Origin: Opitutus sp. GAS368
GTDB taxonomy: Bacteria; Verrucomicrobiota; Verrucomicrobiia; Opitutales; UBA953
Reading direction: 5' to 3'
Assembly (NCBI GenBank): GCA_945866215.1
Contig: CAMBGQ010000002.1
Location: 28,413 to 92,412, forward strand
Length of the DNA: 64,000 nucleotides
Part shown: in pieces, positions 52,508 through 56,471 of the stretch
Layout of the letters: every line of letters begins with the position of its first letter
How positions within the stretch are numbered: position 1 is the first letter of the stretch
Notes under the pieces: generated by a model
Database searches by the model: none
What the model was told of the DNA's origin: nothing
Seen by the model: the letters and a program-made list of their open reading frames with translations, nothing else
Made by a program: the position numbers and the translations under genes

Positions 52508-52535
52508 GCAGGCCGTCCGAAATCGGACGGCCTGC
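52508..52535 (-). terminator. Terminator after the first amt gene
   Basis: On the minus strand GCAGGCCGTCCGA and TCGGACGGCCTGC form a 13-bp stem with a two-base apparent loop, followed by TTCTTTT. It lies 20 bases past the amt stop at 52556. Confidence 0.9.
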
Positions 52536-52555: not shown

Positions 52556-54061
52556 TTAAGAGTTGCTGGTATAACCCTCTTCGCCGTGGTCCGTGATATC
52601 CAGGCCGCGGGCTTCTTCTTCTTCGGTCGGTCGGAGGCCAATCACTGCCTTGATTAGGTAGGCGAGGATGGCGGTGGCGACCAGGGAGAGGATCAGCGTG
52701 ACGGCGATGGCCTTGAGCTGTTCGGTCAGGAGCGTCTTTCCGACGATGTCCTTCAGGTTCGTGTTGAGGTTACCGTTGACGTCGGCGGTGGCGTAGATGC
52801 CGGTCAGGATGGCACCGAGGGTACCGCCGACCGCGTGGATGCCGAAGGTGTCGAGGGCATCGTCATAGCCGAACTTCGACTTCATATAGACGACGGCCAC
52901 GAAAGGAATCACTCCGGCCAAGACACCGATCAGTACCGCGGAGCTGGCGGTCACGAAGCCTGCTGCCGGGGTGACCACGACGAGGCCGGCGATGGCTCCC
53001 GAGCAGAGGCCGAGGACGCTGGCGTGCTTGCGGAGAATCCACTCGAGGGCGCCCCAAGTGAAGGCGGCGGTCGCGGCGGCGAGGGTGGTGGTCATGAAGG
53101 CCTGGGCGGAGACACCATCGGCGGCAAGGCCTGAACCAGCGTTGAAACCATACCAACCCACCCAGAGCATGCCCGTACCAATGGCGCAGAGCACCATGCT
53201 GTGGGGCGTCATGGGCTTCTTGCCGAAACCGAGACGAGGCCCCAGGATGATGCAGAGCAGGAGGGCGGACCAGCCCGAGGTCATGTGGACGACCGTGCCG
53301 CCGGCGAAGTCGATCGCCTTGATGGAGGCCTTGGCGTTCCAGACGCCGTTCATCTCACCGGTGATGCCCCAGATATGGTGGGCCATCGGGAAGTAGACGA
53401 GGAACATCCAGCCGAGCATGAAGAGCATAACGGCGGAGAATTTCATGCGTTCGGCGATAGCGCCGACGATGAGGGCCGGGGTGATGATCGCGAACATGAG
53501 CTGGAACATCGAGAAGACGTTCTGGGAGATCCAGTAGGCATAGTCTCCGTTCGGGGCGGCGCCGACTCCGTTCAGGAAGAAGAATTCGCTTCCGCCGAAG
53601 ATCTTGCCGAGGAAGGTGCCGTCGAAGCTCTTACCGAAGACCAGGGAGTAACCCACGGCCCACCAGATAATCGCGACCATACCGGCCAGGCCGAAACATT
53701 GGGCGACGATGGAGAGGACATTCTTCGAACGAACGAGGCCTCCGTAGAAGAGGAAGAGACCAGGCAAGGTCATGAAGAGCACTAAGGCGGCACAGACCAT
53801 CATGAAGGCGTTGTGACCAGGGCCGGCGGAAGCGGCGATGGGGCCGGCCGCGACCTTGTCGTCGCCCGCCTTGGGGCCGACGTTATTAACGTAGGCTTCC
53901 AGGTCGGCCACGCGCTGGTCGAGCGCGGGTGCAGCCGGAGCCGCTTTCGCCGCCTCGACTTTGGCGGGTTCAGCCGCCGGGGCGGGAGCGTTCTGCGCGG
54001 GCGACAGATAAGGCACTGCCGCCAAGGCTAGGATGGTGAGAGTTCGGAGCAGGGAGTTCAT
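52556..54061 (-). CDS. amt: Ammonium transporter with N-terminal extension (Amt-1)
   Basis: Amt proteins form trimers that move ammonium or ammonia across the inner membrane. The 501-residue protein starts with a signal peptide-like segment (RTLTILALAAVPYLSPAQ) and an Ala/Pro/Lys-rich linker to about residue 80 before the 11-helix channel. The core has FMMVCAALVLFMTLPGLFLFYGGLVRSKN, AGGTVVHMTSGWSALLL and GWYGFNAGSG with the His pair region. A perfect sigma-54 promoter (TGGCACG-N4-TTGC) ends 15 bases before the ATG. A paralogue lies upstream with a similar promoter. No glnK gene accompanies either copy. A strong terminator follows. Confidence 0.93.
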   Translation of the reverse strand: MNSLLRTLTILALAAVPYLSPAQNAPAPAAEPAKVEAAKAAPAAPALDQRVADLEAYVNNVGPKAGDDKVAAGPIAASAGPGHNAFMMVCAALVLFMTLPGLFLFYGGLVRSKNVLSIVAQCFGLAGMVAIIWWAVGYSLVFGKSFDGTFLGKIFGGSEFFFLNGVGAAPNGDYAYWISQNVFSMFQLMFAIITPALIVGAIAERMKFSAVMLFMLGWMFLVYFPMAHHIWGITGEMNGVWNAKASIKAIDFAGGTVVHMTSGWSALLLCIILGPRLGFGKKPMTPHSMVLCAIGTGMLWVGWYGFNAGSGLAADGVSAQAFMTTTLAAATAAFTWGALEWILRKHASVLGLCSGAIAGLVVVTPAAGFVTASSAVLIGVLAGVIPFVAVVYMKSKFGYDDALDTFGIHAVGGTLGAILTGIYATADVNGNLNTNLKDIVGKTLLTEQLKAIAVTLILSLVATAILAYLIKAVIGLRPTEEEEARGLDITDHGEEGYTSNS

Positions 54062-54076
54062 GGCGATACCCCTTTC

Positions 54077-54091
54077 GCAACCCTCGTGCCA
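54077..54091 (-). promoter_or_regulatory. Sigma-54 promoter of Amt-1
   Basis: On the minus strand the element reads TGGCACGAGGGTTGC, a full match to the RpoN -24/-12 consensus TGGCACG-N4-TTGC. The TTGC ends 15 bases before the ATG. Transcription is expected about 12 bases after the GC, which would leave a leader of about four bases. Ammonium transporters are classic RpoN/NtrC targets. Confidence 0.8.
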
Positions 54092-54202
54092 ACCGCTCCA
54101 TTTTCAGCCGTTGATCTGAATGTGCTTAAAAATAATCTTAAGCCAAAGGCAGGCTTGCTGGGAAAAAAGCAAACCAGTGGCCGGGCGCCCAGTAAAACAG
54201 GC

Positions 54203-55477
54203 TTAATTATGATTATAGCCTTCTTCGCCGTGGTCGGCGATGTCGAGCCCTTGGGCCTCGGCTTCTTCTGAAGCCCGCAACCCAATGGTCGCTGCGACCA
54301 ACTTGGCGATAATCCAAGTCATGATCAGAGAAAATACGATGCAAGCCACGATCGCGATGAGCTGGCCGGTCAGCAGGCCTTTTGAAATCAAGGCACCGCC
54401 GGCGGGGTTCACCTCGGCGCTCATGAGCAACGCCGTCGCCAGCGCGCCGATGGTCCCCCCGACGCCGTGGACGCCGAAGGTGTCGAGCGCATCATCATAC
54501 CCGAACTTGGGTTTGAGGACGGAGCAGGCCCAGTAGGAAAGCGTACCGGCCAGCAAGCCAATGATGACGGCGGAGCCGGCGGAGACGAAGCCGGCGGCGT
54601 TGGTCACGGTGGCCAATCCGGCAATCGCGCCCGAGCAGAGACCGAGCACGGAAATCTTTCCGCGGTGAGCCTTCTCGACGACCGCCCACGCAAGCGTGGC
54701 GGTGGCGGCGCCCAGCGTCGTGGTGAGGAAGGCCTGGAGCGCGATACCGTCGGCGGCCAAAGCGGAACCAGCGTTGAACCCATACCAGCCAGCCCAGAGC
54801 AGGCCCGTGCCGATCACGCAAAGCACCATGCTATGCGGGGTCATCGGGCGTTTGCCGAAGCCCGCGCGCGGACCCACCAGCCAGCATAGCATGAGTGCGG
54901 ACCAACCGGAAGTCATGTGGACGACGATACCGCCCGCGAAGTCCGCAGCCTTGAAGGCGGAGTCGGCGTTCGCGATGCCGGAGAAGTCGCCGGTGGCACC
55001 CCACACGGCGTGCGCGACAGGGTAGTAGACCAGAATCGTCCAGAGGAACGAGAACAGCATCACCGCGGAGAACTTCATCCGCTCGGCGACGGCGCCGATG
55101 ATGAGGGCAGGGGTGATCGCCGCGAACATGGCTTGGAAGAGTCCGAACGTCGCGCCAGAAATCCGGGCATCGTAACCGCTGGAATCGGCGCCGAGGCCGG
55201 CGAAACCGAAGTGTTCACTCCCGCCGAAAAGGTGCCCGAGGAAGCCGCCGGCGTAGCTCTTGCCGAAGACGAGGCTGTAACCGAAGGCCCACCACATGAG
55301 GATGCCCATGGCGGTCAAGGCGAGGCATTGCGCGGCAATCGAGAGCACGTTCTTGCTACGCACCAGGCCGCCGTAGAAGAGAAAGAGGCCGGGAATGCAC
55401 ATCATGAGCACCAGAGCGGTGCTCACCATGACCCAGACATTATCAGCGGCGGCAGCAGGAATGGCAGAAATAAGCAT
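54203..55477 (-). CDS. amt: Ammonium transporter (Amt-2)
   Basis: A 424-residue Amt paralogue without the long N-terminal extension of Amt-1; it begins LISAIPAAAADNVWVMVSTALVLMMCIPGLFLF. The core motifs FAGGIVVHMTSGWSALML and GWYGFNAGSALAADG are shared. The C-terminal tail ends ADHGEEGYNHN, close to the ADHGEEGY or TDHGEEGY form that contacts P-II proteins, and this is kept in both copies. The genes are tandem and separated by about 140 bases. Its own sigma-54 promoter lies 15 bases before the ATG. The region upstream is AT-rich and divergent from a beta-barrel candidate. Confidence 0.93.
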   Translation of the reverse strand: MLISAIPAAAADNVWVMVSTALVLMMCIPGLFLFYGGLVRSKNVLSIAAQCLALTAMGILMWWAFGYSLVFGKSYAGGFLGHLFGGSEHFGFAGLGADSSGYDARISGATFGLFQAMFAAITPALIIGAVAERMKFSAVMLFSFLWTILVYYPVAHAVWGATGDFSGIANADSAFKAADFAGGIVVHMTSGWSALMLCWLVGPRAGFGKRPMTPHSMVLCVIGTGLLWAGWYGFNAGSALAADGIALQAFLTTTLGAATATLAWAVVEKAHRGKISVLGLCSGAIAGLATVTNAAGFVSAGSAVIIGLLAGTLSYWACSVLKPKFGYDDALDTFGVHGVGGTIGALATALLMSAEVNPAGGALISKGLLTGQLIAIVACIVFSLIMTWIIAKLVAATIGLRASEEAEAQGLDIADHGEEGYNHN

Positions 55478-55492
55478 AGTGCTTATTATGAA

Positions 55493-55507
55493 GCAAAAAG
55501 TGTGCCA
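55493..55507 (-). promoter_or_regulatory. Sigma-54 promoter of Amt-2
   Basis: On the minus strand the element reads TGGCACACTTTTTGC, matching TGGCAC-N5-TTGC. The TTGC ends exactly 15 bases before the ATG, the same spacing as at Amt-1. Confidence 0.78.
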
Positions 55508-55571: not shown

Positions 55572-56471
55572 ATGCAGCACCTGCTTAATGTTAAGCATTT
55601 TGCCATTTTTTACGCACTCTTTTGTGCACGGCTTTTAGCAGTAGAACCTCTTCCCGCTAAGGATTGGGTGCTGGTCGCTGATACCCAGTATCGTGCATCG
55701 GACCAAGTCAGGGATGCCGGCGGCCTAAGCGGTGAGTATGGCCGCTCCCGCACCGGGGTCGAACTCATCTACCAGACCCCGGATCGGGCCGTCGACCTGG
55801 AGTGGTATCGCTACGCCAATCGCTTCCAAGGGGCCATCGCCGGAACGGATCGTTCTTACGGCGATACCACGGATGTCATGGTCACGGGGTTTCGCCAGTG
55901 GGATTGGAACCAGAAATACGGAGTCCAGCTGATCTACGCTTTGGAGTTCGCCGCCGAAGAAGGGGTGAGCTTGGGCAGTTCGCATCGCTGGGGCTTAGGC
56001 GGGGCCATGCGCTGGCGGCCCGACGACGAGACCGATCTCTCCCTCGGAATCGTTTTGCAGGACCGCTTCGAGGCCTCGGTCATGCCAATCCCTTATGTCA
56101 AGGCGGTCTGGCGGCCCTCTTCCTCCGCCGAAGTCGAGCTGCGCGCCACCGGACTGCAGAACGGTATCATCATCCGCGGCTTCCCGACCGAAGACCGGGC
56201 GACGATCATCGATTTTTCGGTCGCCTACGAGACCCTGAGTTTCGCGCTCACCGATGGGAGTTACGGGTCTCGCGCGGTCGCCATCGGCGAGGTGCCGGTC
56301 CGTTTTGGCGTGACGCAATTCTTGGAAAAAACCGGGACCTGGTTCGTGCGCGGGTCGGCCGAATGGATCGCCTTCGCCCGCCATAGCTTCAAGCACGACG
56401 GCGAGACGCAAGGCGCCTTCCAGCCGGGTGCGCAATGGGGGCTGGCCCTTCGTCTCGGCGCTCGCTTCTGA
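55572..56471 (+). CDS. Predicted outer-membrane beta-barrel protein (DUF6268-like)
   Basis: A 299-residue protein with a signal peptide (HFAIFYALFCARLLAVEP). The mature part is a series of alternating hydrophobic/polar strands such as GVQLIYALEFA, PIPYVKAVWRPS, AEVELRATGL and TIIDFSVAYETL. It ends with LALRLGARF; a terminal Phe is the usual signal for outer-membrane barrel assembly. This fits a small barrel of the DUF6268 type, but the name is uncertain. The 5' end of the gene is AT-rich compared with the rest. It diverges from Amt-2 and ends directly at the stop of the 76-residue gene on the other strand. Confidence 0.7.
   Translation: MQHLLNVKHFAIFYALFCARLLAVEPLPAKDWVLVADTQYRASDQVRDAGGLSGEYGRSRTGVELIYQTPDRAVDLEWYRYANRFQGAIAGTDRSYGDTTDVMVTGFRQWDWNQKYGVQLIYALEFAAEEGVSLGSSHRWGLGGAMRWRPDDETDLSLGIVLQDRFEASVMPIPYVKAVWRPSSSAEVELRATGLQNGIIIRGFPTEDRATIIDFSVAYETLSFALTDGSYGSRAVAIGEVPVRFGVTQFLEKTGTWFVRGSAEWIAFARHSFKHDGETQGAFQPGAQWGLALRLGARF

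Follow-up and report, generated by a model that had tools for sequence, protein, structure and literature searches.

Sigma-54 promoters abutting the start codons of two ammonium transporter genes predict near-leaderless mRNAs in an Opitutales bacterium

Background

In Proteobacteria, the NtrC/RpoN regulon (glnA, glnK-amtB, ntrBC) combines -24/-12 promoters before ammonium transporter (amt), glutamine synthetase and regulator genes with upstream enhancer dyads and an activator of receiver/AAA+/Fis-type HTH architecture, and each of these elements has a counterpart in the Opitutales bacterium considered here. The present system differs in that the promoters of the transporter and regulator genes directly adjoin the ATG, with predicted leaders of 0 to 4 nt, and in that the glutamine synthetase is of type III, with no kinase gene among the neighbouring ORFs of the stretch fetched around the activator gene. 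The enterobacterial NtrC site also differs from the dyad TGCTTAANNTTAAGCA (TGC-N10-GCA) described below.

Leaderless mRNAs of Deinococcus-Thermus, Mycobacterium and Leptospira start at the AUG or a few nt from it and lack a Shine-Dalgarno (SD) site (PMC12340547, PMC5243855). The messages predicted here would likewise start close to the AUG and have no SD site; unlike those mRNAs, which as described have -10 type promoters adjoining the ORF (PMC12340547) or a motif left unassigned, they would depend on sigma-54 and an activator. RpoN promoters and mapped leaderless mRNAs coexist in Bradyrhizobium japonicum and Sinorhizobium meliloti (PMC4842269, PMC3616915); the leaderless mRNAs of B. japonicum have an extended -10 box (TGnTA) upstream, and the paper remarks that specific promoters for genes of this kind have not been described. 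In contrast to what is predicted here, a conserved set of sigma-54 leaderless genes is not described in the accessible parts of these two papers. Leptospira interrogans has a sigma-54 site before amtB and about 440 leaderless mRNAs in the species (PMC5243855), and its amtB is possibly an independent parallel. The start-site maps, within the accessible portions of the open-access literature, describe no conserved sigma-54 leaderless gene set, which on that scope counts as weak evidence. Described leaderless bacterial mRNAs arise mainly from sigma-70-type promoters adjoining the ORF, whereas an activator-dependent sigma factor would be responsible here.

Results and discussion

Sigma-54 promoter elements of the amt pair

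The window (the whole stretch of 64,000 nt of Opitutus sp. GAS368 that was analysed, from a 1.9-Mb draft genome that is 85% complete) contains two tandem genes for ammonium transporters, both of which match PF00909 (E values of 4e-106 and 3e-112) and score over the cut-off of TIGR00836. The genes and their promoter elements are as follows.

52508-52535, minus strand: intrinsic terminator 3' of Amt-1 (12-pair stem with 10 G-C pairs, T-rich tail)
52556-54061, minus strand: Amt-1, ammonium transporter of 501 aa with an N-terminal extension resembling a signal peptide (PF00909, TIGR00836)
54062-54076, minus strand: Amt-1 spacer GAAAGGGGTATCGCC, 15 nt, with the ATG at 54061
54077-54091, minus strand: sigma-54 -24/-12 element of Amt-1, TGGCACGAGGGTTGC, exact match, conserved genus-wide
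54203-55477, minus strand: Amt-2, ammonium transporter of 424 aa, the upstream member of the pair (PF00909, TIGR00836)
55478-55492, minus strand: Amt-2 spacer TTCATAATAAGCACT, 15 nt, with the ATG at 55477
55493-55507, minus strand: sigma-54 -24/-12 element of Amt-2, TGGCACACTTTTTGC, exact match, conserved genus-wide

Direct reading of the minus strand bears out the report, made earlier from the sequence alone, that Amt-1 and Amt-2 are both preceded by TGGCAC-N5-TTGC with its 3' end 15 nt from the ATG. The distance from GG to GC is 10 nt in both boxes, matching sigma-54 promoters. The base following TTGC is T in the Amt-2 box, giving the full consensus, and G (not A or T) in the Amt-1 box. The exact pattern TGGCACN5TTGC occurs five times in the 1.9-Mb genome, versus four times for the pattern reversed as a control. 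The Amt-1 and Amt-2 boxes account for two of the five sites; the other three, with no plausible gene start behind any of them, were taken as chance.

RpoN and the NtrC-like activator gene

Absence of rpoN from the genome had been named in the sequence-only reading as grounds for abandoning the proposal; a complete gene is present, as a single ORF of 488 aa with PF00309, PF04963 and PF04552 (AID, CBD and DBD). Two proteins encoded in the genome have a strong PF00158 match (sigma-54 activator domain), with GAFTGA visible in both translations. One of them (locus L007) is an activator of 495 aa with receiver, AAA+ and Fis-type HTH domains and the GAFTGA motif. Its top NCBIfam match is ntrC (TIGR01818) at 483.1 bits, and it is called NtrC-like because this score is below the equivalog cut-off of 558.6. 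A mismatch-tolerant search of the same genome found one further strong site, TGGCACGGATTCTGC, located 15 nt before the ATG of this activator.

Conservation among relatives

Upstream regions of amt genes were taken from members of the genus, the relatives being mostly uncultured freshwater Opitutales/Opitutia genomes such as Opitutia bacterium UBA953 and Opitutae bacterium BS6. The box is present before every scored amt gene of the genus that has its start region, the sole exception being cut at a contig end. The spacing is 15 nt in 54 of 62 cases, 12 nt in five and 18-20 nt in three; the last three are third copies of triple amt arrays, and some of the genes with 12 nt read ATGATG at the start, which leaves the usual ATG at 15. 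For ntrC, where the receiver domain and not the box was used to choose the start codon, spacings of 12, 13, 14 and 15 nt were counted in 11, 3, 6 and 23 genes (43 in total), and three additional ntrC genes have TGGCAT boxes 12 nt from the ATG. The pattern TGGCACN6TGC-N15-ATG has roughly 130 matches in 55 genus genomes, versus 10 for the reversed pattern; those identified precede Amt-1, Amt-2, ntrC and a beta-barrel-like secreted protein.

Three sister genera possess amt, and the box precedes all 14 of the amt starts examined in them, mostly at 14-16 nt and at 12-13 nt in two. Their ntrC genes have the box at 12 nt in g23 and g213, in weaker form (e.g. CGGCAC), and at 16-18 nt in g212, apart from one ambiguous case, with 18 nt in one ntrC. 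A fourth genus of the family, g22, is without amt and has distant activators only. In the other families of the order, no scored amt gene has a box near the ATG. A phylum-wide search of about 385 genomes for the box at 15 nt gave about 50 scattered matches outside the genus, versus about 17 for the reversed pattern, and no other lineage has one to three of them in each genome. The boxes are conserved in relatives, as the proposal demanded, across the genus and its sister genera. The spacing of exactly 15 nt holds for both genes of the window and is the mode in the genus; relatives have mostly 12-16 nt, and it is the closeness to the ATG that is conserved. In this Opitutales family, sigma-54 promoters appear to lie mostly 12-16 nt before the ATG of amt genes and of ntrC-like genes, 15 nt being commonest, and for the main genes the predicted leaders are 0-4 nt long.

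Several members of the genus have triple amt arrays, found at L045, L052, L059, L065, L074 and L263, and the boxes of their third copies lie 12-20 nt from the ATG; AGGGG-like runs occur in some of these third copies. Genome G019 has a broken amt fragment with one internal TGA.

Predicted transcription start and leader length

All 83 distinct 15-nt spacers of the genus have a pyrimidine at position 12 followed by a purine at position 13. They share ancestry within gene families and are not 83 independent events; what counts as independent support is that unrelated genes agree, and that different genera do. In g212 the step is weaker, being found in 5 of 9 amt and 1 of 4 ntrC spacers. The purine at position 13 is the expected initiator, from which we infer leaders of 0-4 nt. 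The corresponding positions in the window are as follows.

54064, minus strand: predicted Amt-1 RNA start, G, at the 12/13 pyrimidine-purine step (predicted leader GCC)
55480, minus strand: predicted Amt-2 RNA start, A at spacer position 13, at the 12/13 pyrimidine-purine step (predicted leader ACT)

The consensus count (+1 at twelve bases past the GC) falls on the pyrimidine, so the true start could be off by a base or two. The near-leaderless character claimed for both mRNAs gains support from the comparison, and a leader of 3 nt is likelier than the four or so bases first proposed. In ntrC of the genus, positions 1-13 of the spacer, CTACTTTTACTCA, are nearly invariant and found in most species, and it is the number of bases from position 13 to the ATG that varies; at the 12-nt spacing, the A of the ATG supplies the purine of position 13. 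The predicted start thus keeps a nearly constant position relative to the box, and the ntrC leader would be 0-3 nt. The start codon is ATG in the amt and ntrC orthologues examined.

Predicted activator sites and the glutamine synthetase III promoter

Dyads of the form TGC-N10-GCA lie upstream of both boxes.

54156-54171, no strand: TGCTTTTTTCCCAGCA, predicted Amt-1 activator site, 64 nt upstream of the box (a gap of 63-64 is common in the genus)
55582-55597, no strand: perfect dyad TGCTTAACATTAAGCA, predicted Amt-2 activator site, 74 nt upstream of the box, the sole exact TGCTTAANNTTAAGCA in its own genome
55601-55616, no strand: second, weaker Amt-2 TGC-N10-GCA site, TGCGTAAAAAATGGCA (gap of 93-94 in part of the genus)

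The exact dyad TGCTTAANNTTAAGCA is present in 25 places in the 55 genus genomes, versus one for the control pattern. TGC-N10-GCA was found in 29 of 35 promoters of the Amt-1/3 type (gap 63-64; 1.6 expected in shuffles), 25 of 31 Amt-2 promoters (1.4 in shuffles), 24 of 43 ntrC promoters (2.1) and 15 of 29 promoters of the glutamine synthetase III gene, glnN (1.0). The gaps between dyad and box in the amt, ntrC and glnN promoters cluster at 32-33, 43, 52-53, 64 and 74-75 nt, in steps of roughly one helical turn, and such phasing is expected because an enhancer-binding protein must face the polymerase. We infer that the NtrC-like protein is the binder of these dyads. Several of the TGCTTAANNTTAAGCA places that were checked belong to this regulon, and no sigma-54 box lies near those at L273 and L277; other exact sites are at G015:C74:15889 and G070:C19:34359.

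A divergent ORF of 299 aa (55572-56471, plus strand) begins with a signal-peptide-like stretch and matches nothing in Pfam or NCBIfam. Since its first codons overlap the perfect Amt-2 dyad, this ORF and Amt-2 may be co-regulated, or its start may be mis-assigned.

In the glnN genes of the genus a conserved box, TGGCACNNNGGGTGCT, precedes the ATG at a distance of 25-49 nt, which is 40 nt in the present genome. As this box of the same regulon sits so much farther away, closeness to the ATG is gene-specific: the predicted sigma-54 promoters of this genome are not always at the ATG, and those of the transporter and regulator genes are.

Shine-Dalgarno signals

Some Verrucomicrobia, including strain IMCC26134, are listed as SD-scarce (PMC10783764). 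In about 300 kb of the present genome (the window and L389-L400), SD-like tetramers precede the start codons of 17 of 130 genes, versus 14-21 in control windows. The absence of an SD site, which had been counted as a mark of the two amt genes, is real for Amt-2 and ntrC, whose spacers (35 and 11 distinct sequences, respectively) contain no SD-like tetramer, and is nothing special in a genome where such tetramers are at background frequency; it was dropped as a sign of leaderlessness. SD-like purine runs are present in 20 of 35 distinct Amt-1-type spacers. The one in the window, GAAAGGGG at 54076-54069, lies upstream of the predicted RNA start and could be used by a longer read-through transcript from Amt-2. 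If the predicted start is right, the message would be without an SD site because the leader is too short to hold one. In the same sample, the bases just before the ATG are C-rich: among 41 strict starts, 20 have C at -1 and 25 have it at -2. Six of these 41 have a -10 box adjoining the ATG in the 5-9 nt bin, with no clear excess among the 130 relaxed starts.

Proposed regulation

The best explanation, which we consider probable, is that both amt genes belong to a sigma-54/NtrC-like regulon in which transporters and regulator are expressed from near-leaderless mRNAs. RNA polymerase with sigma-54 (RpoN) would transcribe both genes, switched on by the NtrC-like enhancer-binding protein on the upstream TGC-N10-GCA dyads. 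Transcription would begin around position 13 of the spacer and leave a leader of 3 nt, or 4 at most, giving a practically leaderless mRNA to be translated without SD contact. The activator's own gene, with the same promoter type and a leader of 0-3 nt, would complete a small autoregulated nitrogen-limitation circuit, and glutamine synthetase III would be a member that retains a leader of ordinary length. The main inference of the sequence-only reading is well supported by the comparison, with the RNA ends standing as predicted positions. Translation independent of contacts between the 30S subunit and a leader is a plausible, hypothetical advantage under nitrogen scarcity.

A wider reading, to which we give an even chance, is that of a lineage-wide nitrogen regulon whose sigma-54 promoters have become anchored at the start codon; leaderless mRNAs for the transporters and the activator would then be the direct product of enhancer-dependent transcription. 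If this is true, translation without a leader would have been selected as an integral part of how a lineage with no detectable SD use responds to nitrogen starvation. Across the family, the -24/-12 geometry and the start codon appear to be tied together in three gene lineages that are unrelated to one another (Amt-1, Amt-2 and ntrC), and the contrast with glutamine synthetase III would offer a clean natural test of selection for leaderless translation in stress-regulated genes. The system would also test how lineages without SD use initiate translation, and would provide a promoter signature for nitrogen-limitation genes of uncultured freshwater Opitutales.

Alternative explanations

An alternative that we consider unlikely, though worth weighing, is that the boxes are true sigma-54 promoters and the working transcripts also or mainly come from farther upstream, by a sigma-70 promoter or read-through from Amt-2, in which case the mRNAs would have leaders and the spacing would be incidental. 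The gap of 141 nt between Amt-2 and Amt-1, which holds just one weak terminator-like site, and the purine runs of the Amt-1-type spacers are in keeping with this, whereas the Amt-2 and ntrC spacers are free of SD-like tetramers and no consensus sigma-70 promoter was found upstream of either amt gene on the coding strand. Moreover, incidental spacing would not persist genus-wide in unrelated genes while that of glnN drifts over 25-49 nt.

Binding sites that overlap start regions can work as roadblocks, and from such general knowledge the conserved element might be a site at which sigma-54 or another protein blocks the start region. This is improbable in view of the full -24/-12 consensus, the helically phased dyads, the nitrogen-assimilation genes downstream and the failure to find an alternative promoter. 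More improbable still is a mis-assignment of the ATGs, with the real start downstream and a normal leader. The start codons were indeed taken from sequence alone; however, the current ATGs are conserved in the genus, the ntrC ATG is 24-33 nt ahead of the receiver-domain core and any later start loses the domain, the next ATG of Amt-2 is inside the first membrane helix, and that of Amt-1 would delete the signal-peptide-like stretch. Chance resemblance, with TGGCAC-N5-TTGC at background frequency and coincidental spacing, would suit the genome-wide count (five versus four) and the conserved copy before an AsmA-like gene that coincides with a probable sigma-70 promoter, but is rejected, with next to no probability left to it, because the box is retained in front of orthologous genes in nearly every member of the genus and in the sister genera.

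Other genes with similar upstream elements

The copy of TGGCAC-N5-TTGC at the AsmA-like gene (L254-L257) is 19-20 nt before the start and coincides with TTGACC-N17-TATTGC, probably a sigma-70 promoter; it was left out, being either a chance overlap or a dual promoter. The beta-barrel-like secreted protein (about 260 aa; L208, L213, L258 and L266) gave no significant match in a Pfam search. A promoter of the amt type lies 15 nt before the start of its gene, which is a possible further member of the regulon.
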